Shown: positions 7,834 through 54,700 of the stretch, piece by piece
Layout: every line of letters starts with the position of its first letter
Position numbering within the stretch: position 1 is the stretch's first letter
Translations under genes and position numbers: made by a program
The notes under the pieces: model-generated
The model's input: the letters and a program-made list of their open reading frames with translations, nothing else
Told to the model about the DNA's origin: nothing
Database searches by the model: none
Origin: Sphaerolaimus hirsutus
Taxonomy: Eukaryota; Nematoda; Chromadorea; Monhysterida; Sphaerolaimidae
DNA: 64,000 bases
Assembly: GCA_964036195.1 (NCBI GenBank)
Contig: OZ038452.1
Span: 25,927,785-25,991,784, forward strand
Reading direction: 5' to 3'

Positions 7834-10800
7834 TAATATGTATATAAAAGCCTATCAGAAATACGTTTTCTGTACCGAGTACTTTCAGAAAGTACACGTA
7901 GAAGCGAAAAGGTACAGGAAATTTTTTGGAGGCCCCTCTACTGTCAATACCTTCTAAAATACACTGAATATCGTATCTGCCAGTCTATGTGTATAAAATA
8001 AATACATTGATATCAGCGTTTTTTTGGCGCCATGGCATGGTGAGGATCCGTAAACAAACAGCCCCCACCGCCCAAAAATCATGGATACATCCATGGTGAA
8101 AATATAAATACCATTTTCTGCCTATTATTCGGATTGTATATGATAAATCTCAGTGCAATGCATGCAGTCAGTAGGCTATACAAAAATAATCCACACGCGA
8201 AGATCATTTAATGTTGCAGGTCAAAAAGGTCTTCAAAAATTGAGATAAGACTGGCTGAAAGGTAAAAAACAGCGATTCAGTAGATTTACTAGCATCGCAA
8301 AAAAGACTCCTTAAATTTTCATTTGCGTGCAACTGATAGTGCCTCTTGCAAGCCGATGTCTCGTGACACTGCATTCGTATGGTGTACGGTAATTTTGCCA
8401 TTTTTGAAGATCGAAGTACAGGGTGCGGCAATTTAGAGCTACGCTTTAGATTTCGAATAACTTGTCACTGGGTGTTCGGATTGACATCAAATTTTAGGTT
8501 AACATTAACAACTAAATAGGAAAGGATCCCTGAAAATATGGCTGCGATAGCTCCACTCGTTCTCATGTTATTCATGCAAACGCGTAATTGTCACTTTACC
8601 ACAACCTCTACCCCCGTGATAGGGTTCAAACAGAATCCACTTTTCGGGACCCGGATTGGGATCGTCTTTTTCAGTTTTTTCTCTCTTTATTTTCGCAGCG
8701 GCATGTTAAAATGAGTGCGTGAGCGCCACTAATCCGCCTTACCGATAAGGTAATCGGCAGACGCTTGCGTAGTTGGTTGTAAAGCAAGGTGGTAGTAAAG
8801 CGACAATTATTGGTGTTTGCATGACTAACTTGAGAACGAGTGGAGCTATCGCAGCCATATTTTTAGGGACCCTTTCCTATTTAGTTGTTAATGTTGACCT
8901 AAAATTTGACGTTGATCTGACCACCCAGTGGCAGGTTATTCGAAATCTAGGGCGTAGGTCTAAATTGCCGCACCCTGTATTTTGTTGCATGAATTAAGCG
9001 AACCGTGCTCCTACTTCTAGTGCTTGTGCATAAACTACAGTTTTAATGTTCGACATTTCACTCAACAAAAAAGGGAATCGGTGCGTTCGTAGACGCCGCC
9101 AAAATGCTTGTATTTCCCACGGGCCGCAAGCGCGCTGACTGAACAACCCTGTTTTCTTAACACCAAAAAATAATAGCCCGTTCCTGTATCTGTGCCCCGC
9201 AGTGTGCCACTAATGACAAAATAACATCTAGGAGGCATTACCGCACGTTGACAAGTTCGACGACAAGTGTCTAGAATCAAATTACAAATGAAGTTACATT
9301 CCTGCCGTCAAGTTACATCAAATTACAAATGCTTGTCAACTAGAACCGCACCGAGCCGCACTGGACAAACTATCGCCTCGAGTCGCCCACACTTGTCTCG
9401 TCACTTGTCAAAGTGCGGCAACGTACCCCCCACCCAACCCCCAGCGCAACCCCCCCCCCCCACTCGCAGGCAGCGCACGATGACCGTGACTGCGTTGCTG
9501 ATCTGCGCCACGTGCGTGACGGGCTGGACGCCGGCGCTGGTGCAGTACGCGCTCTCGTGCGCCGGCTGCCCCCTGGCGCTCGACCCCCAGTCCGATCTGG
9601 CAGACTTGATGGGCGTGTTCGTGCTCAGGTGGGTCGGGGGTAAGGGGTGCTGTGCGCAGCTTAGGGATCCTGGATGTGCCCCGGCGGCTGGGCGTGGAGG
9701 GGGTAAATATATTTATGAATTGGGCAGGCGGCGCAGCATATTTATCAACCTGGCAAACCGACCTTTTCGTGCATTGAGTCGAGTTTTTTCTAATTTGATA
9801 ATACTCGGCGGACCGCAAAGTATACATACCTATCAAATTACTTACCGTATTACCACGTAATACCCCCAGGGGGTATTTTCACGCAAGTTTTCAGGGGGGT
9901 TAACTCGAGGGGTGGCTGTATTTCGCCAGAAATTCGGTAAAATTTTACATACTCAAACGTCGTGACAAAAAAACTGTAAACGGGGCCAAGTATCACTTTA
10001 GCAAGCGCTGCCTCCAGCCCCATTATGTGGGAGAGTGGGTGATCTCCACTGAACCCAATTCAACGCTAACTATAGCTAAACATAGCCAAAAGAGCCACAC
10101 GCGCACCCGCAGCCTGGTGGGCATCTGCTTCGTGATAGCCAAGTCGATCGTCAACCCGATCGTGTACGCGGTGCGCATACCCGAGATCAAGGAGCAAATG
10201 GCGCTGCTGTTCCCCGGCCTGGGGCTGGTGCCGCCGCCGGACCGCGGCCGCGCCGCCTGCAAGTACAGCGTCAGCGTGCGCAGCGTCACCGAGCAGACGG
10301 CGCAGTTGCGCAAGACCACCGCGACCAACGCAAACGAAAACGCGGTGAACGCGGCCGACGCGGCCGCAGAAAGGGCCCGCGCCCCGCCGCCGCCGTCGCA
10401 GCGGCACCTGGTGCCAGTCCCGGACCCTGTGAAAGAGCCTGTAAAGTGTGAATGACCCTGGTAAATGTCAGGTGTCATGTAAAAGACCCTGTCTAGTGTC
10501 GTGTATATCCAGATCTTATTCTATCGTATCCTAATCTTATCATTTTGTATTCAAATATGTTTTTATGTCCAAAAGTAATATTTGGATACAAAAACATCAC
10601 ATTTGGATATGATAAAATAAGATTTGGATACACCTGACAGTTGACAGGGTCTTTTACATGACACATGGCATTCTACAGTCTTTTACACTTTCCAGGCTCT
10701 TTTACAGAGTCTGTGACTGCCCCCAGCAGCACGCGGCGCAAGTGCAGCAGCAGAACGGGCAGAGCCGGAGAAGCGACGACCGAGAGAACGGCGACGACAA

Positions 10801-10900
10801 GAGCGACGCCCCACTCAATCACAACGAGAATGTTATACACGCGGACATTGGCGAGTGCACGCCGCTAGTGGTTTATAATACGCAGGTGACTGATTTGTGA
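4044..10900 (+). CDS. Rhodopsin-family G-protein-coupled receptor
   Basis: Eight exons, all in phase: 4044-4195, 4253-4409, 4704-4811, 5011-5159, 5623-5751, 9470-9628, 10113-10410, 10727-10900; 441 residues. Seven hydrophobic segments are visible, with family landmarks: N-glycosylation site N10-F-T; the TM1 Asn in IINGIILYC; D66 in TM2 (LSLVVSD); C113 at the top of TM3; NHY (123-125) where most class A receptors have DRY; GWTP (250-253) for CWxP in TM6; NPIVY (299-303) in TM7. The tail is Gln/Ala/charged and disordered. It should signal from the plasma membrane through G proteins; the ligand is unknown. Intron 2 appears to use a GC donor (GAG then GCATGT at 4410). The last intron is one introner-like element. 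The start is the ATG just before the glycosylated N-terminus; an extra upstream exon is possible. I do not recognise an ortholog. Confidence 0.82.
4429..4646. mobile_element. Palindromic MITE, ACTAGTTGACATC family
   Basis: It starts GGGCCCACACACACTAGTTG and ends with the inverse, ...CAACTAGTGTGTGGTGCC, giving a terminal inverted repeat of about 24 bp with mismatches. It fills most of GPCR intron 2. Related copies or fragments lie near 3790-3855, 15520-15600, 27757-28193, 42465-42715 and 55018-55163. Confidence 0.65.
4838..4968. mobile_element. CCGTATTTCCTCGAA-family MITE copy (B family)
   Basis: It begins ACCGTATATCCTCGAATAAG and ends CAAGGATATACGGTA, with repeated TTATTCAAG/GTTCGAG motifs between. 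This termini pair and its C/G-run interior recur at least ten times in the window. It lies in GPCR intron 3. Confidence 0.6.
5198..5577. mobile_element. Small palindrome split by an R1 MITE
   Basis: GTAGACATGTAAACCCGCTC (from 5205) reappears inverted at about 5541-5561 (GAGCGGGTTTACATG), forming a palindrome. Between the arms is an R1 fragment with GATAGATAG motifs, a run of Gs and the family end GGAGACCCCTG at 5534. A related start (GTAGTCATGTAGACCCGCTGG) lies in UGT intron 1 near 57964. All of this is in GPCR intron 4. Confidence 0.5.
6163..7299. mobile_element. hAT-like element with ATCGAATATCG arrays
   Basis: The ends TTCGGGTCGGGACGATATAT and ATATCGTCCCAACCTT are inverted relatives. The flanks are identical 8-bp duplications, AAATGACA at 6155-6162 and 7300-7307. 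Subterminal arrays of ATCGAATATCG resemble simple sequence. A complete R1 MITE (6451-6957) is nested inside. It lies in GPCR intron 5. Confidence 0.75.
6451..6957. mobile_element. R1 MITE nested in ATCGAATATCG element
   Basis: It runs from TAGGGGTTTCG to GATACCCCTG with near-matching 8-bp flanks TGTTGCTG and TGCTGCTG. It contains the family's CTATCTATCTATCCCGGAGG arrays and runs of C. It inserted after the host element and so is younger. Confidence 0.7.
7786..7830. repeat. (AT)n microsatellite
   Basis: About 45 bp of nearly uninterrupted AT dinucleotide, followed by a less regular ATAC/ATAT stretch, inside a decayed R1-like repeat in GPCR intron 5. Confidence 0.9.
8419..8977. mobile_element. 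CAGGGTGCGGCAATT MITE with long inverted arms
   Basis: It starts CAGGGTGCGGCAATTTAGAG and ends AAATTGCCGCACCCTG, with arms of about 170 bp. It is flanked by TA on both sides, pointing to a TA target duplication (Tc1/mariner-type) rather than hAT. A second copy, interrupted by a larger hairpin, occupies 19103-21050. Confidence 0.75.
10411..10726 (+). mobile_element. Introner-like element forming GPCR intron 7
   Basis: The intron begins GTGCCAGTCCCGGACCCTGT directly after the coding CTG and ends ACTGCCCCCAG directly before CAG CAC. Its ends are inverted relatives of each other (left CTGGTGCCAGTC, reverse of right CTGGGGGCAGTC). The arms carry the family's repeated units (GTAAAATGTC, TGTCATGTAAAA). 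Removal is phase 0, after residue 384. The centre holds a smaller AT-rich palindrome (ATTTGGATA). GT and AG both come from the element's own termini. Confidence 0.8.
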
Positions 10901-11066
10901 TCAACATAGTTTTGTGACGCGGCGCTTCGTACAGTGGGCATTCTTCAAATCTCTTCACACATTGGCAATGTTCCAGAATCTTTGTAACACGTCTAAAACC
11001 AATTACGGGAGGAAATTTTCCAATGTGCGACGCGTCGGCAAGTATTTAATGAGACTATTTGAATAT

Positions 11067-11072
11067 AATAAA
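11067..11072 (+). terminator. Candidate poly(A) signal AATAAA
   Basis: The first clear AATAAA downstream of the GPCR stop codon, in an AT-rich stretch. Confidence 0.45.
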
Positions 11073-11264
11073 TAATTTGAGCGAGTATGACACGAATGAA
11101 GATAATAAAGATGTTCTAAATTTGGATTTGACAGAAACAATTATAATTTCTGAGGCAGTAATGCAGCAGGAGACATATTTTAAACAAGATTTCGAAAAAT
11201 AAGAGTTCATGTAGTCTGTGAAACCTTTCAAATCACGCATGCATACCGTGCACACAACAGTGGA

Positions 11265-11636
11265 TACCGTATTTCTTCCAATAGAACGGCACACGTCTAA
11301 TAGAAGGGCACATCCAATAGAACGTTAGGATTTGACATGTTTTTGCGCTCATGAAAACAATAAAACGACACCCTCCAATAGAAATTATGTTGGGAGTGCT
11401 CAACAACAAAAATGCAAAAATGGATGGCGAGAATGTTCAAAGCATTAAAATAGATATTAAAATAGAAATTGATGCTCTGGTATATGAATATTGTTCAAGT
11501 TTCATAAATAAAAAACTACATTCAAACGAAAACTGTGAAAAATCGGTAGAACAAAATAACGGCAGCTCCAATAAAACGGCAGGCAAAAAATTAACAAAAA
11601 ATATAACGTCGTTCTACTGTTAGAAGAAATACGGTA
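11265..11636. mobile_element. B-family variant, AATAGAACG type
   Basis: It begins ACCGTATTTCTTCCAATAGA and ends GAAGAAATACGGTA. Internal AATAGAA motifs replace the C/G runs of other copies, and similar motifs close the window at about 63940-64000. The internal open frame at 11351-11623 has no recognisable transposase feature. Confidence 0.5.
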
Positions 11637-11793
11637 TCTACAGAAAGTCAAGGAATGATAAGTTTACTGGATAATTATTTTTAGAATATGATTGAGCACA
11701 ACGCATAGCTACACGACAGGTACGAATCGCGCACCTCGACGCATACGCAAGTGAAACTGTAAACGAATGCATCTTTTTTGCATGAAGAATCGA

Positions 11794-14581
11794 TCAAGTG
11801 GAACCGCGTCTCTCAACTTCGCTAAACCGCGCCTCTGTGAGAACATGTCGGTAAATACAAAAACGTCCAATAAAAAGAACCAGTGGCCCAACCGACCCAA
11901 TTTCCTGACATAGCCGTCGATTGCATAGGCGGCCTCCTCGAGTCGCTTGCTCGACTTGTCGATCTCGTCGATCTGGTCCAGGTAGGGCTTCATGTTTTCG
12001 TATTTCAAGTTCAGCTGCTGCACGCGTTCGGCCACCTGCACGGGCAGCTCGAGATGGGAAACAAAATACATACCGTATTTCCTCGAATTACCCCCCGGGG
12101 GGGTATTTTTTCAGAGTTGAAATTTTGAGGGGGCTTAAACGAGGGGGGGGGGGGGGCGGGGGGTATCTCGAGGGGGGGGGGGTTATTGCGCCAGATTGTT
12201 TTGAAGTCCCAGTAGGGTTCAAACGGGATTGACTTTTCGGGATCGGGATCGGGATTGGTTTTTTGAGATTTCGGGATCGGGATCGGTTATTGGCCGGGAT
12301 TGGGGTCACGGGATCGGGATCGGCATTTTTTCGGGATCGGGATTGGGGTCTTGGGATAGAGATTTTGGCCAATGTTTTGGCATCCACAGTTGTTCATAAA
12401 AGGTCTAAAAACACTGTTGGATGCCAGAAACGTGGCATAAAATGAACGCTGGGGGTTTGCGTTCACATTTTTGCATGCAAAAACGTCGTTTTTTCAGTTT
12501 TGATAATTTTCACTAAGTTTTCTGGGATCGGGATCCCGGACTTTGGAGTTTCTCGGGATCGGGATCGGGATTTCGGGATCGGGACTGCGAAATCCCGGAC
12601 GTTCACGGGATCCGGGATCGGGATCCCGTTTGAACCCTAAGTCCCAGTACTAAATTGCCGCTTGAAACGTACGCAGACGTCGAAAAATGCAACAAAAACC
12701 GCCATGTATAAGACTCTGTAGACTTGTATAAGTATGTAGACTGTATACACACTGTTCTAACATAATACAGTCATTGTCATATTTTTCACGTGTGTTCTGC
12801 GTTTCCCGGAGCAATTGTCATCTAAGTTCTCTATACACTAAATTTGGGGGGGGGGTATTTCGAGGGGGGGGTTATAAATTAATAGATGCCATTTTCAGGG
12901 GGGGTATTTCGAGGGGGGGTATTTCGAGGAAATACGGTATACTCGAGGGGGGGGGGGGTTCAATATATAGGCTTTTCCGAGGTATAGAAGGAAGAAAAGG
13001 GAAAAAATCGCTAAAAGTAGAAGAAAAACAGCTAACAATAGGTATGTAAGTACATAAATATAGTACAAAAAATAGCTGAAAAAAAGCAATACGGAACATG
13101 GATTAGAATTTTGAAGGTGAAAAACTATAAAAAGGTACGAAAATTAGCGATTTTGAGCGAAAATTGGGGAAAATTTCTTTAAAATCGCGACAGATAGACA
13201 GATAGCTGGCCGATTGGGGGGGGGGGGGTTAGGGTATAATAGCCCAAAATTTTGCCTCCGGGATAGATAGATAGCTGGCGGATTTGGTGGGGGGGGGTAA
13301 CCCCCCCCTACTAAACCCCTGCCATTTAGTATGTTAAACGATCACATTCATATCGCTAAATTTGCACATAGACATCATATGCAAAAAAACGTCACTGGAC
13401 ATCATCACCGCCATTATCGCAATACAACAATACGCAAACGGGTAAGCACTTCACCCACAGCATTCACAGTCATGGTAGGCAAAATTTACGTGAACTGCTC
13501 CACAATCCGATGGTGCAACTGCTCAATGTCCATCATTTTGGACTTTGGACCGTAGACCTTCTTCTTCAAAATGCCCCAAAGGAAGAAGCCGATTCACTGT
13601 ACCCCTTTTGGTCACCCACCATTCCTACATAAAAATCTTGCAATATGAAATCGTGCACTTCACACAACAAATGGGGGATATTTATCTACCGCCATACCAA
13701 ATTTGAGCACTTTTCATTCAAAATTGACATGTTGGGAGCAGATTGAAACCGTGCGCCTGACGTGCGCCACCCTGTATATCTCATCACAACGTACTGTCAC
13801 TTGTCTGATATACCTGTATATGTTGACTCATAACCATATCTGTAACATATTAGAAATGTCATGACAATTTTTTTTAAAAGCGCGTTTAAAAACACGGGGC
13901 GGTTGAAAAAAGCGCTTTTTCCATCCTACGCCGACCCTCCCATTCACCCACGACCTCCCCTCACCCCACCTGCGTGGTAACAGCCCTGACATCAGTGTAC
14001 CTCTGTGCGGCGGCGGCGTTCATGGCAGCGAGCAGCTTGTACTCGTCCAGGGTGTTCTCGAAGTGCCCGTGCACGTAGTCGGTGAGCTTGTTGAGCATGT
14101 CGGTCGACAGCTCCGCCAGCTCGCCGTCGCACGAGGTGGCTTGTGCCTCCGTTTTGGCTTCGTCCGAGTGCGACCCTACGAATGTGACTGGTGTGCTGCA
14201 GCAGAAGGCAATATACATAAAAAAAGTCGACATAAAGATGAACATTTTTGAAAGAAATCACTGCTTATGGCTATCCCATGACTCCAGTCATATTTAATGA
14301 CCACAATAGACACAACAATACACTGTCGGGCGCTTAAAATAAGAATATTTTTCTCAATACCAAATTTTGTAGGATTTTGAAAAAATCGGTCTTAAATTAA
14401 AAAAGTGATAACCATTTAAAAAAAACCTCATTAAAAAAATTCACTTTTTCCAACCCTAAGAGTGGCAAAAGGAAACAAAACATCGCTAGGCGATAAGTAA
14501 ACCGGAACGAAAAAAGCTGAAAGAAAAAAACACACCAGCCGTCGAGGATGTTGACCGACCCCCGCCATCGGTTGACTTCAT
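11794..14581 (-). CDS. BLOC1S2: BLOC-1 complex subunit 2
   Basis: A complete four-exon gene on the minus strand: 14581-14536, 14175-13970, 12035-11897, 11834-11794; 143 residues, close to the roughly 142 of the human protein. All junctions are in phase with GT-AG ends. After a Ser/Gly-rich start, helical sequence follows, with the family core DEYKLLAAMNAAAAQRYTDV, NLKYENMKPYLDQIDEID, LEEAAYAIDGYVRKLE and the end ARFSEVERR. BLOC1S2 is a coiled-coil subunit of BLOC-1, acting in biogenesis of lysosome-related organelles, and is also shared with BORC in lysosome positioning (known of the family). The start is the ATG whose exon gives correct phase; no other ATG-exon nearby fits. The gene is convergent with the GPCR. 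Intron 2 (12036-13969) is mostly repeats. Confidence is high because the C-terminal junction recreates the conserved KLEA motif. Confidence 0.93.
12072..12939. mobile_element. B-family MITE interrupted by a hAT-like element
   Basis: The outer ends are ACCGTATTTCCTCGAATTAC and GGTATTTCGAGGAAATACGG. The interior contains G runs and, after removal of the insert at 12213-12639, reads continuously like the copy at 14739-15125 (TACTAAA...CGTA.GCAGACGT). It lies in BLOC1S2 intron 2. Confidence 0.75.
12213..12639. mobile_element. TAGGGTTCAAACG hAT-like element, CGGGAT arrays
   Basis: The termini TAGGGTTCAAACGGGAT and ATCCCGTTTGAACCCTA are perfect inverted repeats, flanked by identical AGTCCCAG duplications (12205-12212, 12640-12647). 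Most of the interior is GGGATC-type short tandem repeat around a unique core of about 100 bp. Relatives lie at 43414-43586 and 39968-40055, with fragments near 8625 and 19310. Shared termini link it to the ATCGAATATCG element at 30144-30848. Confidence 0.85.
12945..13321. mobile_element. R1 MITE, left end truncated
   Basis: GATAGATAGATAGCTGG arrays, G runs and the family ending ...ACCCCTG. The left terminus abuts the B-family copy. It lies in BLOC1S2 intron 2. Confidence 0.6.
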
Positions 14582-14738
14582 TCTGAATGCGTATAAATTG
14601 TTGCAACGTTAATAGAACATGATAACTGTAAAAGATACTTCACCGATGTTGATACACGGATTAGAAAGCGCCACCAATGGAGACTTTGTTGCATTTTGGT
14701 AATTTTTTATGATGGCTCTATATATAGGTATATATATT

Positions 14739-15125
14739 TACCATATTTCCTCGAATACTCCCCCGGGGGATTTTTTCAGTGTGGAAATTCTGAGGGGGGT
14801 TAAACGAGGGGGGTATTATTTCGTCATGAAATTTTTTGAAATTCCGGTACTAAACGTATGCAGACGTAGAAAAATGCAAAAAAAACCCACCATGTATAGA
14901 CTCTATAGACTTAATTAGGTATGTAGACGGTATAAATAATGTTTTAACGTAACACTGTCATTGTTTAAACGTGTCCGGCATTGCCCGGATATCAAACCGC
15001 AGCTTTTTTCGTTAACGTTCTCTATACCCTGAATTGGGGGGTATTTGGAGGCGGGTTTTATATTCATAGTGGCCATTTTGTGGGGGGAGGGTATTTCGAT
15101 GGGGGTATATCGAGGAAATTTGGTA
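14739..15125. mobile_element. B-family MITE copy
   Basis: It runs from TACCATATTTCCTCGAATAC to ATATCGAGGAAATTTGGTA, with CCCCCGGGGG and G-run blocks just inside each end and the same core as 12072-12939, without the nested element. It is the cleanest single copy in the window. Confidence 0.7.
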
Positions 15126-15866
15126 GGTGGAAACATAAATGGCTAAAAGTAGGTTGATAAAAAGGTAGATTAGAGTTAAAATCTAAAATATTCCAAAATG
15201 AACAAAAAGGTGGCACGAAATGGCCACGCGTATCTCTCGGAAATTTTGGCTCACCACACGCCGTAATTTTGAGTTCTGCGTTAGAGAGGTTTTTGGATGG
15301 CCAAACATAATTAGTGAAAATTTAGATGAAAAAACAGGCCAAACAATTGAGTTTGAAGTAATTTAAGCTTCATCCAGGTCCTTTGGTCAATTTGCATGAA
15401 GCCTAACATTTTTCTTTATTTACAGCTTTCCGTTCGGTGATGTCCCATTTCAGCATAGTACCGCATGCGAAAACATTTAACGCATACGCTATGCATTTTT
15501 GGTCAACTGAGCAACCGATTTTGTCAATTAAAATAATGGTCACTTTTAGTTGACATCCATTTCGACGTCAACTAGTGTGTGTGTGGCCCCATAGCTCAAA
15601 ATTTCAGTGTGTGGGGCGTTTTTTGCGCACCAAATCAACACCTGGCATTCATGCTCATAGCATTTATAAAAATAAATACATGGACGTGTTTTATATTTAT
15701 TTTTGTATTCATGACTGTAAAGACTCGAATTGTACATACACAGTATCCACCCTCCACAAGCTTAAGCCATGCTATATGTAACACCGTATGGACTTAGCCA
15801 GGATTTTCGAGCGAGGGGGGCAGATCGTATAACGACAGCCCCCCTTAATTTTTTGGGCCAGGCCTC

Positions 15867-16236
15867 CTATGCGCAAATGCCTGGTACGCACAAACGCCCG
15901 GTACGTACAAAATTGTGCCCGCCACGCACATCTGCCCAGTACTTACATGGCTGATGATCTTTGCGTACCGGACAGATGGTCACTAATGTTATTGCACAGC
16001 TTTTTTCACTTCACTGATATCTGAAAATCACTTGAAAAAGTGTCAAGTGAAAAAAACGGTCAAAAATGGCCATTATCCACCATTTTTTCACTTGACACTT
16101 TTTCAAATGATGTTCAAATATATGTGAAGTGACAAAAAGTTAAAATGTAATGTTATTTCGTATCAGGCAGATGTGCGTGGCGGGCACAATTTTGTGCGTA
16201 CCGGGCGTTTGTGCGTACCAGGCATTTGTGCGTACA
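15867..16236. mobile_element. Perfect-armed palindrome, TTGTGCGTACC type
   Basis: Outer arms of about 72 bp (GCGCAAATGCCTGGTACGCA...; inverse ends GTGCGTACCAGGCATTTGTG) enclose a second inverted pair built on CACTTGACACTTTTTCA. The whole unit would fold into one long hairpin. It is nested in the composite at 15788-16524. Confidence 0.7.
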
Positions 16237-16317
16237 AGTGCACCGCCAATTTTTTCTACAAGCTCCCTAGAAAATAGCAATTTAAAAGTGCCATTACTGG
16301 TATTTTTTATGTCTGGC

Positions 16318-16474
16318 CTGGGGCCAGTTCCGCAAGCGGAGAAGTGAGAAGTAAAATGGCAAATGCGAAGTAAATTGAGAGGTAAAATTGCAAAAGCGAA
16401 GAGAAATAATATTTTATTTTTATTTTTTCACTTCTCAATTTACTTCTCACTTCTCAATTTGCGGAACTGGCACA
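16318..16474. mobile_element. CTGGGGCCAGTTCCGCAAG MITE
   Basis: It starts CTGGGGCCAGTTCCGCAAGC and ends TTTGCGGAACTGGCAC, with GAGAAGTGAGAAGTAAA-type subterminal repeats. The extreme terminus (CTGGGGCCAGTYCC) is almost the same as that of the introner-like family, so the two are probably related. A left-end fragment lies at about 48548 in NHA intron 6. Confidence 0.65.
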
Positions 16475-29300: not shown

Positions 29301-32300
29301 CCTCATTTGCACCCAGCCGATACCGGCAGTAAACCTTTAACCGAATCGGAAACAAAAGTGCAACTTCACAATTCCCACACAAAAACTCGCCTCTTCCACA
29401 TCGCCGGCGAGCATGACGGTGGACCTGTCGTCGATGCGCAGGTGCCTGCCGCTGGCCAGCTGGGCGGCCGCCTTGTCCGCGTCGTTGGCCAACACTCGTT
29501 GGAGGTACTCGTGCGCGAGGTTTTTCTGCTCCTCCTCGGTCATTTCCACGTCCGGCTCGGCCGCTTGCCTGACGAAGAGCGCGCAATGATAATGATCAAT
29601 GAACACTGGTGCCAATCCCAGACCTAATGGAAAATGCCCTGCAAAATGGCTACTCGGGTCTGGGACCAGGGACGTAGCCAGGATTTTTGAGCGGGGGGGG
29701 GGCGGATTGTATACGGAGGCCGGCGAACGGGGGGGCGGCTCCCCCCCCCCGCTAAAATTTTGCCCCTGTAGTAAAGGGAATGGCGCCACTGGCGTCGGCG
29801 CCATTCGTAGGCGCCACGCCATGGCGCCACTGACGTTGTCATTGGCGCCAAAACAGCTGTATATGTCTGTATCTTATAAAAAAACCCGCCCCCCCTGGCT
29901 ACGTCCTTGTCTGGGACTGGCCCCTAGTACGCAAGTCGGCGAGCGGACTAGTGTCAGGGAAAATTGTAGGTGATGGGTAGTATGTCTAACGACAAGTAAA
30001 CTTATTAATTGGATCCTTTCACTTCACTTAGCACATCAGTATCACTTGACTTAGCACTTAAACATGGCAAAAGCTTAAGGCATAGCAATTTTCTTGCCAC
30101 TTGCGAAACTGACACCAAAGTCAGGGGGAAAATATGCAGTAACTAGGGTTCAAACGATATATTGTATCGAATATCGGATATCGACTATTTTTTTATATCG
30201 AATATCGATATCGAAAATTTTGAAAAAATATCGAATATCGACCATTTTTTCGATATGTCGAACCTATATTGTGTCCCTAAAAAAAGTTATCATTTTCATT
30301 TTGAGATACTTATGATTGATCTGATGTGCTTTATCTGATCTGAGAATTGTATTAGATGAGTAAAAGTACAGTACTTATAATGTCATTTTTGTTGGAGTGC
30401 TAAATTTGAACCCAGAAAACGCTGATATACTTTTTTTGCAACATGCCCTTAAGCAATTAGGTTAGGATGAACTGTAACGTCTACCAATTGTTATTTGTCT
30501 GAAACACATTGATTCATCATGTTTTTTTCTACATGTTCTACTTTTGAGTGATGTAAACCTTGTTAAAATCACTTGTACCATTCACATTTAACTAAAGAGA
30601 TGATTAACCATGCGTGCAACCACATGAAAATACAATATGTCACTTGAAATATGCCTTGCTATACCAAAAGCAAATCGCAATATCCAATATCGAAAATATC
30701 GAAATATCGAATATCGATCATTTTTTAATATCGAATATCGAATATCGATATCGAGGTTCCATATCGTATCGATATCGAATATCGAGTTTCGGAAAAAAAT
30801 ATCGAATATCGAATATCGATATCGAAAAGTCATATCGTTAGAACCCTAGCAGTAACTTTTAAAAAATCTGCACTTACACCGGCATAATGAAATCGTGTTC
30901 TTGTGGCGGGCAGACCGCAGCCGGACCGTAAAATTTTACATCAGTGGGCCTTTCATCAACCGCAGCTCCTATATCTGGCGCACTTTCAAAGCTGCAAGTT
31001 TTATAAATTTTTATACGTAGAGGAAGTTCAAAGTGGCCAGGCGCACCAATAAAACATACCGAATGGGTGAATTAGACGCGTCGACCTTCGTGGGTTCATC
31101 GACGGCCCTGTGGAAAATTTAGAGCCAGTCAAAAGACGTCTCCAGTGAGAAAAACTACCGATAAAAAGACAATAAATAATGCGAACATAAGGTAAACACC
31201 TTCCCGGTTACGTCCGGCAGCCATTTTTTGATTTTATATCTTATATCCTATCCCCAGTTCTAGGGCGCCCCCGAGGCTGAAACTTGGGGGATATACTGTC
31301 GCAACCCCCCTCTACTTCGCATGAATTGGGGGGGTCGCGGCGACTCCTCTCAGAGTGGGTCGCCCTAAGTGCAAATTTTTTTGTGGCTTTTTTGGTGTCC
31401 CACGTCAGGTCCGGCACCCGCTGATTTCTGAGCTGTGGGAGGGGTATAAATCTAAAATTTTGGGGATGTGTTACCAACACTACCCCCCTACTGTACACTA
31501 TTCAATAATGTGAGATAAATGTGAAAAATTTCTCAAAAATTCGTTTATTCTCTAAAAAACACCACTCCCCAATAGATGGATGACAAAAAATTCACTTTTT
31601 GGAACTTTTTTATTAGACACTTGAAGAGCTGGTTTACAAAACTCTAAAGGGAAGGGTTTAATGTTTAAAGTTATGTAAAGAACCATACCTCTAAAATGCC
31701 TGCATTGCAAAATTTACTTAGGGTGAATTTTATGACATCATAGTGACATCATCGCAGGAACAAAAATTCACAAAATTTACACTTTGAAATTCCCCCCAAG
31801 TAAATTTTGCAATGCAGGCATTTTAGAGGTATGGTTTTTTACATAACTTTAAACATGAAACCATTCCCTTTAAAGTATTGTAAACCAGCTCTTCGAGTGT
31901 CTAATAAAAAAGTTCCAAAAAGTGAATTTTTTGTCATCCATCTATTGGGGAGTGGTGTTTTTTTAGAGAATGAGTGAATTTTTGAGAAATTTTTCACATT
32001 AATCTCACATTATTGAATAGTGTATAGTAGGGGAGTGGTGTTGGTAACACATCCCCAAAATTTTAGACTCATACCCCTAGGGTTGGCCGATGTTTTTTTT
32101 TAACGTTTTTTTATAAAAAACGTTTTTTTAAAAAAAACAACATAACGTCCGAAATGTTTTTTTTTTAACGGCCGAAATTTTTAGTACTAAGCATTAGGTA
32201 TTTTGCAAAATTTTTGCGCGCAAGCGCGCAATTTCACACACAAATTGACATTGGTGGTTGTTTTCATTGGTTTTGTTGCATTTTTAGTATCAAAACATCC

Positions 32301-46530: not shown

Positions 46531-49500
46531 ATGAATCGATCAGGGGCTGGTCCGCGCTGTTTACGATCATACGGAAGATTTATGAGCCGATTTCCAAAGG
46601 TATGTTCTTTTTATGCCGGTGATTTCGGCTCTGCCATAGGTCCCCCCTGGATTTTATCATTTTTTATCACAACATCTTGAACGTCTGTTGTCCAAAACTA
46701 ATTTGCTATCTGCCGAAAATAACATGACCAATGCACTAAAACACAGGCGAGCATCTACCTGAGTTACGGCCTATGCTCTGCGCTCGTCTACTTGTTGCTT
46801 TTGTCCATTTTCAAAATGTCCGCGCTGCCTGTTGTCCACAGCTGCCGATCGGAATGGTCCCGCTCAATTGATGTTGATTTTGATGGTGGCAATGTATCCA
46901 CTGTGGCAGTGGAGGCATTTGAACCCATTTGCAACAAGGGCACAGTTTTTGGTATTTACAGCGCCCTGGTGTTTGGCCAGGTAGTGGGACAACTTGCGGC
47001 TGCAGTCGGACTTCCCCCTTTGCTGGGTTCGTTGTTTTTGTAACTTTTTATCGTTTGTCAAACGTTTGACGTTTGTCGTTTGTCGTTTTGTCACTCGACT
47101 AGCTAATCCTCGGATGCGGCGGGTGTTTTCAGGCATGCTTTTTGCGGGACTGTTCCTACGCAACGTTCCCGTTTTTGTCCACTCGCCGCCGCCGGCAGCA
47201 TTGATCAATAGGAGAGCGGCCGGGGCGCTGCGCAGGGCCGCTTTCGCGCTGATTTTGCTCCAGGGTGGATTGGGTCTGGATTTGCAAGCGCTATCCAAGT
47301 TGAAAGGTTGGGCCGATTCAGGGGTCTCCAAGATTTTGGCCCTCGCGGGGGCTGGATAGATAGCTAATCGCTCCTCCTGAGGGATAGATAGCTGGAAAAA
47401 TTTTTGGGGGGGCTTGGGAGGTCAAAATAAATTGACTTTTTCAATGCATAGAAGGCAGAAAGGGGAAAAAAATCGCTAAAAACAGGTTAAAAGTAGCTAA
47501 AACAGGCAAAAAATGGCTAAAAAGAGGTATATAAACATGTGTATAGGCGAAAGCCGCGATTTTGAAGTTGAAAAAGTATAAAAGGATACGAAAATTACTG
47601 ATTTTGATCGCAAATTGGGGTTAAATTTCTCAAAAATCGCTCCAGGTAGGTAGATAGCTGGCCGATTTGGGGGATAGATAGCCAAAAAATCTCCCTCCGG
47701 ATTGATAAATAGATAGCTGAGCGGCCTCCGGGATAGATAGACAGCTGGCAGCGTCCCCCCACCCCCCCCCCCCCGCCCTAGGGGACCCCTGGGCAGATCT
47801 GTCGCTGTGTTTGCGTTCAGCGTAAATCCCGCTTCGCTGCGCAGGCGTGGTGCTGCGGCTGGCGGCGCTGCCGTGCCTGGCCGAGGCGTGCACCGTGGCG
47901 CTGGTGACGCGGCTCGTGTTCGGCTACCCCATCACATATGGCCTGTTGCTTGGGTTTGTGAGCCTGCCATCTCAGCCTGGAAACGTTCTACGGCGCCGCT
48001 GCGCAGGTTCGTGCTGGGCGCCGTGTCGCCGGCGATCTGCGTGCCCGCCATGATGTCGGTGCGGCGGCGCCGCCTGGGGCTGGTGCCACTCTCAGAGCCT
48101 GTATAAAGCCCTGTCAAATGTCAAATGTCATGCAAAGTGTCAAAAGTCATGTAAAATGCCCTGCAAAATGGCAACCGAGTTTGCAGGGCATTTTACATGA
48201 CTTTTGACACTTTGCATGACATTTGACATTTTACAGGGCTTTTTACCGGCTCTGGGAGTGCCCCCCGGCCGAGGGCGTGCCCACGCTGGTGGTGGCCGCG
48301 AGCAGCGTGGACGACGTGCTCGCCATCGCCGGCTTCTCCGCCCTGCTCGCGGTCGTGTTCCAGCCGGACGGTGGCGCGGACGCGTGGGCCCTCGCCCGCA
48401 ATGTGTTGATGCCCATCGCGCAGTTGGTGTGCGGCGTCGCCCTGGGTGTGGTCTCGGGTGCGGCTTTGGCTGTTGTTCCACCTGGCTCGCTGGTGCGTTT
48501 GCTGGGTGGTGAAAAGTTTCCAGTGTCGTTATGACTTAGCAATGTACTGGGCCCAGTTCCGCAAGTGGGGAAGTGAGAAGTAGAATGGAAAAAACGATTT
48601 AGGGGATAGTAGCCAAAATTTTCGCCTTGGGATAGATAGATAGCTGAGCGGCCTCCGTGATAGATAGATAGCTGGAGCGTTTGGGGGGGGGGGTAACCCC
48701 CCCCCCCAACCCCCCATACTGAACCCCTGCAGGCACCTGATCTACAGAGTTTTCAGAGCTACATTTTCAGAATCGCCTGGCAGCGTGGCGCACCGTGGCT
48801 ATTCTGCTCACCGGTCAAATGTGTATGTTCGCATGTGCCTCGGTCAACTTCGGAGGTTCCGGTCCAGTGTCCTGTTTGGTAACGCCCATTGTGGCGAAAT
48901 ATTTTTGGGACCATACCGATGTCGATGGCGACCAGCATGATGTGCTGTATCGACGTGAACAGACTGTAGAGCTCTCACAGGTATTGTTTCATTGTTTTTT
49001 TTGTGTGTTTTCGAGATCGGGATTAGGTCAAAGCATTACCACTTTTAGCCGAAAACTAATTGGATAATAATAACGGTTTCGTTGCTTGCGTTTGCTTGCG
49101 TTAGAATGTCTTAACATTCTAACGTTAAAACCATTAGAATGTTAAATAACTTGTCTGTCATATCGGTATATCTTGACCCAACCATATTTGGGAGCTTTTC
49201 AAAAACGGGTCGTTTTAAAAAAGAGTGTTTTTTTTGCCATCCCTAGTTCATGCAACAAGTACCACTTGCACTTAAATTCCTGCATACTTCCTCCCAGTCT
49301 TCGAGAGTCGCGGATGCATTGGACTTGATCTGGCAGCTTTTTGGCGAACCAATGTTATTTGTACTCATTGGGGCGGAGCTAGATCTCGGGGCGATTGAAG
49401 TGTCTCTCATTGGTTTGTGTTTGCGTTTGACGTGTTTTGTTAATCGTTGTTTTCTCTTTATGTAGTTTATACTGGGCGGACCGCAGAATCCTGTCAATTT

Positions 49501-50777
49501 TTAATGAATAAAATCGTGTGATAAATTTCGTAATTGATTGTTCCACAGTAAAATGGAAATATTATGATTAAAAACTGTATGAATTTTGGTTCATTATTCA
49601 TATGGATTATGGTAGGATTTATACTAATTGTGATGTCCACCGAATATGCATGTTTTGTTCATTTGCAGCTGGTTGTGCGTTGGTTCTGGCCTGCGGTTTA
49701 ATCGTGCGCACGTGCGTTGCTTTTTGCGCGGTTTTTCGGGCCGGTTTGAACTGCAAGGAACGGCTCTATGTCGCTTTAGCATGGCTGCCCAAAGCTTCCG
49801 TGCAGGTATTTTCTCGTGTTAATCGGACGGAATTTTTATGCGTTTTATAAGTCTGGTTTGTGAAAGCATCATTTTATTTTTCTAATAATTATTGTAGTGT
49901 CATATCACGATTGAAGACAAATTGTACAGGCCGCCCTGGCTCCTGCATTCTACGATGCTGCTGTAGAGAATGATGGTAACGAGTATGAAATCGGGGCAGG
50001 CATAGTTGTTAGTTTATTTACCGCAAATCCTAGAATAAGTCCCCCTTCGAATAACTCCCCCTTGAATACCCCCCCCCCCTCAAAAACGTCTGACGAAAAA
50101 GTAACTCCCCTGTGGACTTATTCCAGGATTTAGGGTAATTTCCGTTTTTAAATACATTTTGGCTTGATATTCCATTAGGTTACTACGTAAATTGTTTTTC
50201 GAGAACCTCAAAGAAATCTAAATATTAAGTTTGAAACAGTTCGATCGAAACACTTGACTTGGTCGAAAGACTTTTACAGCTAGTTTTCACGGTCGACACT
50301 TGTTTTGGTAGGGGGTCACGGTCGACACTTTTTGCATTCGAGCAGCCCGCACATACCCCCGTTTCAACATTCAACCTCGCATTTCGCAACCAAGTGTTTC
50401 AATCGCAGATAATGTCTGTGGCGGTGATGAGCATCGTGATCACGGCGCCCGTCGGCGCGGCGCTCATGACTCTGACCGCCGGCAAGCTGCTCTCCGCCCA
50501 GGTGCCAATCCCAGACCCTGTCAAATGTCAAGTGTCATGCAAAGTGTCAAAAGTCATGGAAAATGCCTTGCAAAATGGCAACTCGGTTGCCATTTTGCAA
50601 GGCATTTTCCATGACTTTTGACACTTTGCATGACACTTGACATTTTACAGGGTCTGGGACTGCCCCCTGGAAGTAAAGTCCGACCACATTGGGTGCAATA
50701 AGGATGAAAGGGATGCAGCAGATGGTAGTGAGGCGGTGCCGCTTGAAGCGCTCAGTGATGCGGCTAGACCACTGTGA
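46531..50777 (+). CDS. NHA-type sodium/proton antiporter (SLC9B-like)
   Basis: Complete: twelve exons, 46531-46599, 46747-47026, 47133-47306, 47845-47953, 48007-48082, 48259-48522, 48771-48980, 49247-49412, 49669-49805, 49930-50007, 50409-50501, 50679-50777; 584 residues, a little longer than animal NHA1/NHA2. Membrane segments run through most of it. Family landmarks: PPLLGMLFAGLFLRNVPVF, LRRAAFALILLQGGLGLD, GFVLGAVSPAICVPAM, GVPTLVVAASSVDDVLAIAGF with the ion-binding Asp pair D254-D255, LFVLIGAELD, WLPKASVQAALAP, and SIVITAPVGAAL near the end. These exchangers move Na+ or Li+ against H+ (known of the family); the paired Asp favours electrogenic exchange. The C-terminal tail is acidic and cytosolic. 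Introns 5 and 11 are introner-like elements. The exon 6 donor (CCA then GTGTCG) is weak and could lie a few codons earlier. Confidence 0.92.
47319..47791. mobile_element. R1 MITE in NHA intron 3
   Basis: CAGGGGTCTCCAAG to GGGGACCCCTG, with degenerate 8-bp flanks GGCCGATT and GGCAGATC (6 of 8). It inserted 12 bp after the donor at 47307; without it the intron would be about 57 bp. Confidence 0.8.
48083..48258 (+). mobile_element. Introner-like element forming NHA intron 5
   Basis: The intron starts GTGCCACTCTCAGAGCCTGT directly after the codon for L236. Arms of about 85 bp (CCTGTCAAATGTCAAATGTC...; inverse ...GACATTTGACATTTTACAGG) pair almost perfectly. The right terminus has lost the CCCCCAG acceptor (it reads CCCCCCGG), and the reading frame requires the AG just inside it (CTGGGAG, 48258). 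Exon 6 then starts with TGC CCC CCG, so the last few element bases are translated. Confidence 0.78.
48548..48729. mobile_element. Chimeric repeat: CCAGTTCCGCAAG end joined to R1
   Basis: Left part GGGCCCAGTTCCGCAAGTGG is the start of the family seen complete at 16318-16474; the right part has GATAGATAGATAGCTGAGCG and ends GAACCCCTG as R1 does. It lies in NHA intron 6. Confidence 0.6.
49155..49246. mobile_element. C-family right end supplying a splice acceptor
   Basis: CATATTTGGGAGCTTTTCAA and TGTTTTTTTTGCCATCCCTA match the last 90 bp of the copy at 44694-45378. The terminal ...CCCTA plus the next G make the TAG acceptor of NHA exon 8, and the element's T run serves as the pyrimidine tract. 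Confidence 0.65.
49468..49645. mobile_element. TACTCGGCGGAC-family MITE
   Basis: TATACTGGGCGGACCGCAGA to GATGTCCACCGAATATG with the shared core. It takes up about 70% of NHA intron 8 (49413-49668). Confidence 0.75.
50502..50678 (+). mobile_element. Introner-like element forming NHA intron 11
   Basis: The intron begins GTGCCAATCCCAGACCCTGT directly after codon Q552. Near-perfect arms (CAAGTGTCATGCAAAGTGTC; inverse GACACTTTGCATGACACTTG) reach almost to the centre. The right terminus reads GGGACTGCCCCCTGG, so CAG has become CTG; the phase-0 acceptor is the AG 13 bp further on (AAGTAAAG). The spliced exon then reads SDHIGCNKDE. Confidence 0.78.
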
Positions 50778-50997
50778 ACTACGCGTGTTATTTTTGAGGT
50801 TAAATGATTTAGGTGTAAAAAATTACTGTAAATATATTTATAATGGCGAGCTTAACATGATTTTTTCAAATTGAAAGAGATGTGTTTCTGTTTTTGCGAT
50901 TTTTGTGGTATTTACATCGAAAGACGGATATCGAAGTAGAAATCTTTAGAGGTAAACCGCAGTTTCCAGAACTGAATAATCAGGTTACAGTTTTGCT

Positions 50998-51024
50998 AAT
51001 CTGTGGCATGCCGCGCCACAGATT
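50998..51024 (+). other. 3' UTR stem-loop
   Basis: AATCTGTGGC, a 7-base loop, then GCCACAGATT: a perfect 10-bp stem about 220 bp after the NHA stop and just before the AATAAA at 51039. It could be a protein-binding RNA element or a decayed mobile-element end. Confidence 0.45.
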
Positions 51025-51038
51025 TTTTCGCAACATTA

Positions 51039-51044
51039 AATAAA
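51039..51044 (+). terminator. Candidate poly(A) signal AATAAA
   Basis: The first clear AATAAA (in TTAAATAAATAG) after the NHA stop codon, 15 bp past the stem-loop. Confidence 0.5.
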
Positions 51045-51787
51045 TAGAAGGCACAAAACAAAAGCATTATTGGATCTCAACTGACAAAACTAAATGCGTA
51101 TTATACATGGTAAAATAAATGTGTACCTTATCATGATTACGTTTTTCTTTATCTCAGACGATTATTTCTGCTCAATTTGTTCTGCTTCGTTTTTCAACAA
51201 TAATACTGTGTTGTAAGTATTGTGAAGTGTAACGAAACTATTTTCTATTTTTAGTAGCTCGTAGGGATTTTTCCAAACCGTAGTAGCTGATGTAATATCG
51301 ATTTTCATGTAGCGTTAATAGATTTATAGTGTTTATCAGCAAAGTAAAGCTTCACAGCCAACAGGGTGATCTTCATTCTACAGATGTCTGTGGTGGAATA
51401 ATACCATTTCCTTCGATTTCAAGTACCGACAAAAATTCTGCACGTGCTCACGCAGTATTCACATCACACTTTTTTCACATCATACTTAACGTCTCAGCAT
51501 CACATCTAACGTTCTAGAAAATAGGTCTTTTTCAGAAAATATAATTAAATATAGTCTCAGAAAATCTCTCAAAAGTAAAATATCATAAAATATCTCTGAA
51601 AAACCGCCGAAAAATGGGTATAAAAAGGAGATATAAAGATTTTATATTTTTCTCATAAAAAAAACAGGAGAAAATACCTAACAATAAGATAATATCATAT
51701 TTTCTGAGACATTGAAAACAAAAATCTGCCAGAGATTTTTGGAAGCCCACTCACACCCACTCACCCAAACCGGCTCAGCGGGGCAGC
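51045..51787. other. Intergenic upstream of SGF11-like gene
   Basis: No gene. 51520-51740 is the AT-rich GAGATTTT repeat. The stretch just before 51788 is C-rich and ends CCGGCTCAG, a good acceptor, so the ATG exon may begin at 51778 with an untranslated or coding exon upstream. Confidence 0.45.
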
Positions 51788-54700
51788 ATGACCCTCTCGT
51801 CGGGTCGGGTCAGGAGCGCGTCCGAGTCGCTGTACGACTGGGTGCTGAGCCTGGCCATCAGCGAGTTCGTGGTCGACGTGCACAGGGAGGCCAAGCTCGG
51901 CCTGCTCTTCCTGTCCGTGCCCGACAAGCACGCCGAGAGGCGCTTCACGCTGCACGACCGGTTCGTGCTGGTGGGGGAATGAGGCAGTGGGGTGGAGGGA
52001 TTATTTGGGACTTTGTTGGGAGTAACTTGAATGAAAAAATCTCGCAGAAAGTTTCAGAAGTTGAAAAGTTCTGAGCTGGCTGAGCGCTTGGTTCCGACAA
52101 AATTACGGCCAAATAAAAAAAAACATTTTCCAGACACATCACCTGGTAATATCAAGGCCTCAATGGCATTGCTCTTTGGTGACTACAAGATTTCGCAATT
52201 TATTATTGATAATGACAAAGCGCATTTAATAAAAACGTATTTCACAGTTCACCATGACAATTGTTCATGCATGACTCGGTGATGCGCGATGAAGATTTGT
52301 TGGGCTTAGCGCACTTAACGACAGCTCACTCGAATCTAATTGTGTGACTTGCATCGAATTGACACGAAAGTGTCAAAAGTTATATAAAACCCCTATTCTT
52401 TCACCGGTCATTTGGTAGTTTTCATGACATTTTACATGACACTTGCACGGCAATTCGCATTTCCCTGTGTCTGGGCATAGCCAGGGGTCTTCTAGATTTT
52501 GACCCTCCGTGGGGTTGGATAGATAGCAAATCGCTGCTCCGGTGGAATAGATAACTGGGAAAAAAATTTGGGGGGGGGGGCGGTTCGCGGGGGTTCAATA
52601 TATAGGCTTTTTTGAGGTATAGAAGGAAGAAAAGGGAGAAAAATCGCTAAAAGTAGTTGAAAAATGGGTATATAAGCACATATAGTACTAAAAATAGCTG
52701 AAAATATGCTGTTAGACACATGAACTAGTGATTTTGGAGGTGAAAATCCATAAAAAGGTATGAAAAACAGCGATTTTGAGCGAAAATTGGGGTATAGTTT
52801 CTTAAAAATCGCTCCGGATAGGTAGATAGCTGGCCGATTTGCGGGGGGGGGGGGTGGGGGTTTAGGGGATAGTAGCCCAAATTTTTGCCTCCGGATAGAT
52901 AGATAGCTGGGCGGTTTAGAGGGGGTAACCTCCAACCCCCCCCCTTTTCTACCCCTGGGCATAGCCTCGGTGCCTTACCCTCTTATCGCCCTGCCCCCCC
53001 TCAGCGCGGGCGTGGACGTGTTCGGTCGGTCGATCGCCGAGCTGACGAAGCAGTCGCGCGCCGAGCAGTGCCTGTGCCCCCAGTGCGACCGGGTGATCGG
53101 CGCCAACCGGTCCGCGCCCCACCTCGCAAAGTGCATGGGCATGGGCCGCACCGGCACCAGGCACTCGGCCCGCCGCGCCACCCAGACGCACCACGGCGGC
53201 GGCGCGCACCAGGCGCTAATCCATGACACTGAAATGTCTAATGTCACGCAAAGTGGCAAAAGTCATGGAAAATGCCTGGTAAAATGGCAAACGTACGTTT
53301 GCCATTTTACCGGGCATTTTACATGACTTTTGACACTTTGCGTGACATTTGACATTTTTCAGGGTCTGAGATTGCCCCCAGGGCGGCAGTCGCGCCAGCA
53401 GCAACGAGCGCTGGAGCCCCAGCCCCGCGCTGCTCGCCGGCCACGGCGGCCGCAACAACCGCAGCCCTGTTACTGACGATGATTTATCTGAGGTAATGGA
53501 TTATTGGCACACTACACTGAAATTTAAAAACAAATCGTATAAATGCTCTTTTTAAAAGTCGGAACTCGATTTGAAAGAGAGATAATTTGAACAATTTGTA
53601 TCAGTTTGCTTTTAAGTTCCGTTTGAGTACTCCTGTGAGAACCAAAAATAATTTTAGTAGCTCAAAAGTAGGGGCTGTGAAAAAGCGGAACTCAAAATTG
53701 TTGAAAAGCTGACGTCGCGCAAATTGTTCAAGTTCCGGACTTTAAAAAGAGCGTTCGTACGATTTTTAAAAAAAATTCTGTGCGTGGTACACCATTACAG
53801 TTGTTCTTTTGTTGTCGCCCGGCGGCAGGCTCATTTTCGGTCGCAGAGCGAATCGAAGGCGTCGTCCTATTGCGACACGAATCCGGACGAATCCGACGAC
53901 GACTGGTCCGAGCACAATTTCAAGCTGCGTGCTTCCGCTCAGTCGAACGCGAAAAACAACAGTCGACACGCGAATTCGTATCACCGCCACGTTTGTTGTG
54001 CACATTTTCCGATTGTGATTAAGACTTCCGGTTCCGTGCACTGGGTAAATATATGTGTGTTCTTCGTGGCAGACCCCCCCCCCCAAATCTACACAGGGTT
54101 ATCGAGGTGCCATTTTCCGATTTCTTATCCGTCACTACATGAATGCGTACTCGGCGGACATCGCACTTAGTATTAGAACCTACCATAACCCATCTGAATA
54201 ATGAACCAAAAATTATACAGTTTTTCATCATAATATTTTGTTTTTAGTATGGAATAATAAATTACTTAATTCGTTAAAATATGGTAGTATGTATTGTGCA
54301 CATACTTTGCAGTCCGCCGTATATAACATAAAAAAGCAAAAAACTTTCCGTGGCGCACGCAATGAAAACCATTGAAAAAATCTGCGAGATTTATATTTAA
54401 AAAATCTCAGAAAATTTTCTGAGATTAATATTTTTTCCACGATTTTCCAGAGAGATTTGATTATATTTTCTTTTTGAGAGATTTTTAAAAATTTAACAAA
54501 ATCCCTCAAATTCGGATATTTATATTTTTCCAGGGTTTTTTAGAGAGATTTTATTATATTTTATTCTTGAGCGATTTTCTGAGATTATATTTGATTATAT
54601 TTTACAAAAATTGATAATTTTTTCTAATGCTAACGGTGCAAAATGGTGACTCTCAACGGCTTGACTACTCGCAGGGCGGCGGCATCAGCAAGAAGCACCG

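Follow-up and report, generated by a model that had tools for sequence, protein, structure and literature searches.

The 64,000-nucleotide stretch of the Sphaerolaimus hirsutus genome analysed here (contig OZ038452.1, positions 25,927,785 to 25,991,784; referred to as the window) contains four copies of a hairpin-forming miniature inverted-repeat transposable element (MITE). Protein similarity running across the insertion sites of sampled copies strongly supports the family as real introners, i.e., whole introns arising from element insertion into exons. Taken as a whole, the observations are probably best explained by splicing with a GT donor contained in the left terminus of the element and a CWG acceptor supplied by the target.

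Introner copies in the window

An earlier note on the window had proposed four copies of one hairpin MITE with common termini. All four are indeed present at the sites it named, with GTGCCANTCCC…GGGANTGCCCC at the copy ends enclosing long inverted arms; the terminus of copy 4 is a degraded version (GCGCTAATCC). Element bounds were taken directly from the sequence letters and the intron edge was set at the target duplication. On this basis, the bounds proposed for copies 1 and 4 could be retained, whereas the ends proposed for copies 2 and 3 (48258 and 50678) each lay 9 bases off the duplication edge. It had been overlooked that the CWG duplication forms the 3' end. The resulting features are:

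10408..10410, plus strand: left CWG target-site duplication of copy 1, reading CTG
10411..10726, plus strand: introner copy 1 with right CAG (element of 313 bp, 10411-10723; CAG, 10724-10726)
48080..48082, plus strand: left CWG target-site duplication of copy 2, reading CTG
48083..48267, plus strand: introner copy 2 with right CCG (element of 182 bp, 48083-48264; CCG, 48265-48267), in an SLC9B2/NHA2-like gene
50499..50501, plus strand: left CWG target-site duplication of copy 3, reading CAG
50502..50669, plus strand: introner copy 3 with right CTG (element of 165 bp, 50502-50666; CTG, 50667-50669), a near-perfect hairpin
53210..53212, plus strand: left CWG target-site duplication of copy 4
53213..53381, plus strand: introner copy 4 with right CAG (element of 166 bp, 53213-53378; CAG, 53379-53381), in an Sgf11-domain gene

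The hairpin arms of copy 3 extend over ~80 bp, and its RNA fold amounts to -142.1 kcal/mol (z -23.7). Copies 2 and 3 have no AG end at the duplication, and the donor of copy 4 is GC instead of GT.

Resumption of the coding sequence in phase at both edges was borne out for copies 1-3, where a phase-0 frame is open after removal of the element plus one 3-bp duplication, and for copy 4 by reading of the sequence; in case of copy 1, frames besides phase 0 are open as well. Phase 0, claimed for all four insertions, holds in the window but not family-wide, since phase 2 was found in one of two OSCP1 copies, in a GSK3-like gene and in a CUB gene (see below). Among the genes named for the four copies, the SGF11-like gene was recovered, copy 4 being located ~20 residues past the end of the Sgf11 domain match. 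An NHA antiporter had been assigned twice, which applies to copy 2 (SLC9B2 match); for copy 3, the joined flanks of which yielded no Pfam match, the assignment is that of the earlier note. The GPCR gene at copy 1 received no confirmation by Pfam, 0 families being found on the flanking exon.

Genome-wide abundance, termini and target duplication

Searching the assembly (348,482,957 bp, 762 contigs) for both termini returned end counts on the scale of ~10,000, far above those of reversed controls. The left end with CTG (CTGGTGCCAGTCCC) gave 4951 + 4929 matches at no more than one mismatch (reversed control 37 + 59), and the right end with CAG (GGGACTGCCCCCAG) 5966 + 5823 matches at the same tolerance (reversed control 57 + 50). 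The abundance of the family is far beyond chance. Copy 3 as DNA query returned 1546 candidates, 40 of which were scored and yielded 80 matches, since near-palindromes match both strands.

For determination of the target duplication, the bases left of GTGCC were compared with those right of GCCCC in the fetched loci (L numbers) and the window. The comparison comprised 71 non-redundant copies, obtained from 86 raw matches by reduction of identical 15-base left flanks; the symmetric copies L042 and L036 are still counted on both strands among them, and L053 is a paralogue of L055. A CTG-flanked pattern was used to pick L001-L008 and L039-L058, which biases their left flanks to CTG, whereas L009-L038 and L072-L088 originate from the DNA search with unselected flanks. 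At a duplication length of three, agreement between left and right bases was 0.76, 0.59 and 0.80; other lengths gave values of mostly 0.1-0.4, and the first and last bases of length 4 reached 0.51 and 0.56. Flank pairs among the 71 copies were CTG/CTG (19), CAG/CAG (16), CTG/CAG (7) and CAG/CTG (2), 36 being mixed or altered overall. Exact 22-base left ends were found genome-wide 587 times with CTG and 686 times with CAG (controls 0; CTG vs CAG, p 0.006). Since both flanks are common genome-wide, the target duplication is CWG. Terminal inverted repeats combined with a fixed 3-bp target duplication are the marks of cut-and-paste DNA transposons; the elements are non-autonomous members of this type, i.e., MITEs, with long hairpin arms.

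With no more than one mismatch per end, 60 copies are of the asymmetric GT type, four carry GGGGC at both ends (L026 and L038 matching this symmetric type perfectly) and four carry GTGCC at both ends. Near GT-type sequence at both ends was also observed in L036:1504-1668 (GTGCCAGTCCCG...CGGGACTGGCGC, then AG), which has open frames on both strands.

Protein continuity across the junctions

The element plus one duplication was deleted, the flanks were joined, and a protein match was sought over the junction. In 59 of the 71 copies some frame is open for at least 25 codons on each side, which is weak evidence because the sequence is GC-rich. The Pfam scan covered 40 of the 64 best frames (30 of 42 sense-best, 10 of 22 antisense-best), 10 frames of eight of the 17 further loci, and five more peptides. 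A family or structure match spans the junction in 11 copies: (i) KCC in L027 (97 residues, gapless, E 1.7e-35), (ii) a second KCC gene in L051 (85 residues, gapless), (iii) OSCP1 in L045 at two introners, residues 25-74 aligning with profile positions 1-50 and residues 3-42 with positions 50-89, i.e., in spans of equal length, (iv) THOC3 in L018 (E 4.7e-22; WD40 alignment gapless at the junction), (v) a GSK3-like kinase in L015 (36 residues, gapless), (vi) NHA2 at copy 2 of the window, where exact removal leaves no junction gap against SLC9B2, and (vii) a tetratricopeptide repeat (TPR; L016), a C2H2 zinc finger (L024), a CUB domain (L032) and, weakly, BPNT1 (L087; E 0.003).

Partial matches below the curated Pfam cut-off are those of TPR, kinase, exchanger, THOC3, the second zinc finger and the inositol phosphatase, with additional PDB matches in case of kinase, exchanger and phosphatase; among those without PDB matches, TPR and the zinc finger have the weakest support. 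Most other frames among the 40 scanned matched no Pfam family. Two further matches were not counted, since the NHL match of L010 ends before the junction and the EB match of L050 exceeds it by one residue.

Read-through of the 13 copies judged coding or probably coding encountered one or more in-frame stops in every case; therefore, the element must be removed to make protein. Similarity reaches both intron boundaries in the 11 domain-supported copies, which lie flush with coding sequence, and because they join flush to junction-spanning protein matches, they are introners rather than insertions into old introns. The mRNA predicted from the DNA is unchanged in length, being gapless in the two KCC genes, GSK3 and NHA2, with spans of equal length in OSCP1. 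The whole-intron reading proposed for the window is thereby supported beyond it.

The zinc-finger loci L024 (contig C653) and L085 (contig C14) are similar and have an element in roughly corresponding positions, so that gene duplication probably followed the insertion. A CTG/CTG copy in L072:1-489 lies within an apparent neuropeptide precursor with repeated GKR sites and without Pfam match.

Orientation relative to genes

All 11 domain-supported copies are inserted in gene sense, i.e., with the GT end first, as against none or one in antisense, where fewer frames were scanned. Two of the 12 antisense frames scanned gave a Pfam match. One of these is the PI3/PI4 kinase match of L053, where the element is located ~12 nt inside an apparent ordinary intron following a canonical-looking donor; the other (L074) is considered below.

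A coding-score test treating both strands alike was based on a model trained on 10 copies judged coding by eye, with leave-one-out scoring. At a cut-off of 3 on both flanks, set after the list had been seen, 12 of 17 copies agree in strand and phase between their flanks, all of them in sense (p 1.2e-6 vs 1/6). With cut-offs of 2, 1 and 0, the sense copies number 12, 14 and 14 and the antisense copies 1, 1 and 1, a total of 29 copies being included at cut-off 0. In the window, the flanks of copies 2 and 3 agree; copy 4 escaped detection by the copy finder and hence has no coding score. Such a preference for the sense orientation speaks for removal from RNA.

The 3' end and choice of acceptor

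With the cut at the duplication, all 11 domain-supported copies start with GT, and their introns would end with AG in five cases, with TG in five and with CG in one (the NHA copy of the window); AG at the 3' end is not a rule of the family. In THOC3, the left duplication reads TTG and the right one CTG, a silent Leu change on the would-be exon side.

Frame-preserving, stop-free GT-AG alternatives were sought for nine copies without AG, the range being set at 12 nt ahead of the element for donors and 30 nt beyond it for acceptors. No such choice exists within this range for the CTG/CTG copy of OSCP1, and the choices add at least 51 nt in THOC3 and at least 69 nt in KCC. Judged from these options, TG use appears nearly forced in the three genes and open elsewhere, and splicing at TG is likely.

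In the consensus, an ACAG precedes the TG end by 19 nt. The right-end region contains this sequence in 8 of the 10 exonic copies and in 46 of the 61 others; the KCC copy has ACTG in its place. Splicing at inner canonical sites (CCCT/GTAAAA ... TTTTACAG/GG, slashes marking the cuts) was rejected as a general explanation, as it keeps 37 nt and shifts the frame in copies with consensus ends, lacks an inner AG in the KCC copy and does not appear among the in-frame GT-AG options.

Human TG 3' splice sites resemble the present case in that TG serves as acceptor in U2-dependent introns. They are described, however, as always alternative, never the sole 3' splice site, and as dependent on an AG within 28 nt (PMC2374985), whereas here, within the searched range, OSCP1 at least would have TG as its sole in-frame acceptor, and KCC has no ACAG. 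With ACAG at a distance of 19 nt, most copies, though not that of KCC, could comply with the human rule.

U1 snRNA was represented by 26 genome matches, 25 of them above the cut-off. Among the 12 fetched (L060-L071), the 5' end reads AAACTTACCTG in five and AAACTAACCTG in six, the one below the cut-off differing from both; the two classes occur within ~1.5 kb of each other on contigs C2, C3 and C16. Introns with U as third base would be favoured by the second class (AAACTAACCTG). A U1 snRNA fitted to GTGCCA was rejected as a candidate, since neither AAACTTACCTG nor AAACTAACCTG pairs well with it.

Proposed mechanism

Insertion at CWG duplicates these three bases, and an insertion into an exon would form an intron by itself. 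The left terminus, following directly on the retained CWG, would provide the GT donor (rarely GC). The right terminus would contribute a short stretch rich in C, and the intron would close with the other copy of the duplicated triplet. Removing the element plus one duplication would restore the original mRNA in any phase. Depending on the target, the acceptor would be CAG or CTG, both apparently tolerated, with the hairpin probably bringing the two ends side by side. The U2-type spliceosome would carry out the removal from RNA, including use of TG acceptors, and mobilisation would depend on a transposase of the NuwaI/Harbinger type.

The chances are about even that this nematode possesses thousands of constitutive GT-TG introns, in which the target sets the acceptor base and CWG in place of AG is accepted by the spliceosome or by a factor assisting it at the hairpin. 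If true, a relaxed 3' splice-site rule imposed by one transposon family would exist in a bilaterian outside the tunicates. One animal family with ~10,000 ends, some flush in conserved genes, would make the birth and cost of introns directly measurable. Furthermore, an element that ends in AG at some sites and in TG at others, all else being equal, would represent a natural experiment on the strictness of the AG rule.

Several observations weigh against splicing with a GT donor and CWG acceptor. With respect to the 3' end, TG as sole acceptor was not found among human introns according to the account cited above (PMC2374985), and six of the nine non-AG copies have small in-frame GT-AG choices of no more than 36 nt (GSK3-like, +9; NHA2, -6 or +9; L046, 0 or +9; L044, +3; window copy 3, -9 or +9; TPR, +24), the alternative in L046 involving no net change. 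The donor GTGCCA pairs poorly with the observed U1 5' ends, and a near-perfect hairpin of 80 bp is an unusual substrate for the spliceosome. With respect to orientation, the strand scan was unbalanced, as the frames from further loci comprised eight in sense and two in antisense, in addition to the unequal shares of best frames (30 of 42 vs 10 of 22). The coding-score agreement is complete in the training copies (7 of 7) but only 5 of 10 in the remaining scored copies, the five disagreeing ones including window copy 1 with its two discordant flanks, and antisense agreement in L056 falls just short of the cut-off (scores 3.1 and 2.7). L074:162-337 has an antisense thyroglobulin-type-1 match (E 3e-4, at the cut-off) reaching a few residues past the junction; it may be a true antisense exonic copy, exact removal of which would leave a 5' end without GT. 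A canonical-looking donor ~11 nt before this element offers an ordinary intron as alternative. Finally, no transposase could be linked to the introner termini, the termini around the Harbinger-type matches of the genome (see below) not having been read.

Alternative explanations

If splicing were canonical throughout, CAG-ended copies would be introners of the GT-AG or GC-AG type, and exonic CTG-ended copies would use nearby AGs, altering the protein slightly, or mark disabled gene copies. This view, which we consider unlikely though deserving attention, is favoured by the AG ends in 5 of the 11 supported copies, the small in-frame and stop-free choices in six of the nine non-AG copies, the frequency of ACAG near the right end (8 of 10 exonic, 46 of 61 other copies) and the slight excess of CAG over CTG at exact left ends (686 vs 587). 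The internal TTTTACAG near the right end also resembles a nematode acceptor. However, it does not account for the CTG/CTG copy of OSCP1 without a choice in range, the at least 51 and 69 nt added in THOC3 and KCC, respectively, or the KCC copy having ACTG in place of ACAG. Moreover, the cut at the duplication leaves KCC gapless against its relatives and the OSCP1 spans equal in length, and NHA2 and GSK3 are likewise gapless at this cut despite having alternatives.

A spliceosome-free removal by an endonuclease and ligase recognising the paired hairpin ends is much less probable. It would agree with the strong fold (-142.1 kcal/mol, z -23.7), with ends varying among copies (AG, TG, CG) and with the nonconventional introns of euglenids, which are described as having base-paired ends and an unknown removal mechanism (PMC4770533). 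A hairpin should nevertheless act on either strand, whereas 11 sense copies are opposed by no clear and one ambiguous antisense copy (antisense having been scanned less), and all 11 copies start with GT.

Precise excision from somatic DNA, with the assembly representing the germline form, would follow the model of the internal eliminated sequences of ciliates. Removal of the element plus one duplication would restore the site regardless of the letters of the duplication, but such a process should ignore the strand of the gene, yet the supported copies are in sense, which renders it very improbable. Least probable of all is that the elements jumped into pre-existing introns: some copies do sit in ordinary introns, e.g., L053 ~12 nt after the donor of the PI3/PI4-kinase-like exon, but the 11 supported copies have no intron sequence outside element and duplication except for one extra C in L016, L027 and L087.

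Relation to known intron systems

Introners of algae, fungi, copepods and others are described as many similar introns derived from insertion into exons (Gozashti et al. 2022, PMC9860276). As reported there, a share of the families has terminal inverted repeats and target-site duplications, splice sites are either borne by the element or recruited from the duplication, and mRNA length is mostly unchanged, as in the present family. Family sizes there range from 5 to over 2,000 copies in a genome, compared with ~10,000 ends here and a 3' end varying with the target base. That survey was based on similar introns in annotated genomes and lists only two groups among animals and land plants, both of them animals; the term 'nematod' is absent from its main text. 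A nematode intron study of 2022 mentions introners, in the text accessible to us, only as a mechanism known elsewhere (PMC9169325). Judged by title and abstract, the open-licence literature contains no description of nematode introners, subscription papers lying outside that search.

In the larvacean Fritillaria borealis, which has non-canonical introns, 34% of introns are reported to end with AT and 28% with AC, many introns being flanked by YAY triplets (PMC13326754). Likeness to the present family consists in triplets at the flanks (CWG in place of YAY), frequent absence of AG from the 3' end and large numbers in an animal. The main non-canonical classes of F. borealis, however, start with AG and are RNA-supported, as opposed to a GT donor and an AG or TG acceptor read from DNA alone. 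By analogy, the mechanism proposed here would be of the Fritillaria kind, but with the GT donor retained. The introner elements of Amoebophrya share hairpin-forming inverted repeats, direct repeats of 3-5 nt at the exon borders, non-canonical ends and genome-wide spread, but are described from a dinoflagellate with variable ends and no family-specific inverted-repeat motif (PMC7789003), in contrast to the one family with fixed termini observed here.

Judged by its own genes, the host is probably a nematode. COX1 (contig C762) has 14 TGA read through and AGA at conserved Ser positions. The tunicate mitochondrial code reads AGA otherwise than as Ser, which excludes a tunicate host. The transthyretin-like family PF01060, which we take to be nematode-specific, is represented by 11 matches (best E 3.4e-21), and COX1 is presumably nematode-like as well.

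Transposon affiliation

The NuwaI group of the PIF/Harbinger-related PHIS elements is characterised by a 5'-CWG-3' target-site duplication and terminal inverted repeats usually starting with GGG; it is described from animals only, i.e., from 12 bony fish, a beetle, a crustacean, a mollusc and an anthozoan (PMC4482050). The introner family shares the CWG duplication, and its right end, read on its own strand, starts with GGGGC (GGGGCAGTCCC). Both features may point to NuwaI, a group of PIF/Harbinger relatives. The left end differs, starting with GTGCC (GTGCCAGTCCC) with changes at bases 2 and 4, the first of which creates GT; one terminus may thus have been altered into a donor.

The Harbinger-type DDE domain PF13359 gave at least 163 matches in the genome. 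Among the matches listed, most have near-equal scores, and their 147 profile positions are spread over ~633 nt containing ~4 in-frame TGA, which would fit an intron of ~190 nt within the domain. Viral contigs, considered as possible vector, gave 0 matches for two patterns in a search from which records close to this genome may be missing. Later work reportedly deals with horizontal transfer of introners.

Further elements in the window

An additional pair of element-like ends was found in the window:

29609..29923, plus strand: further element-like end pair GTGCCAATCCC...GGGACTGGCCC, outer flanks CTG/CTA

It is possibly a composite or degraded copy. On the minus strand, a 153-bp element at 16321-16473 has similar outer ends (GTGCCAGTTCCGC...) and different arms, possibly representing a related MITE family. 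Several other repeat families occur at 47313-55500 and elsewhere in the window, e.g., GATAGATAGCTGG units and GGGGGTATTTCGAGG tracts.

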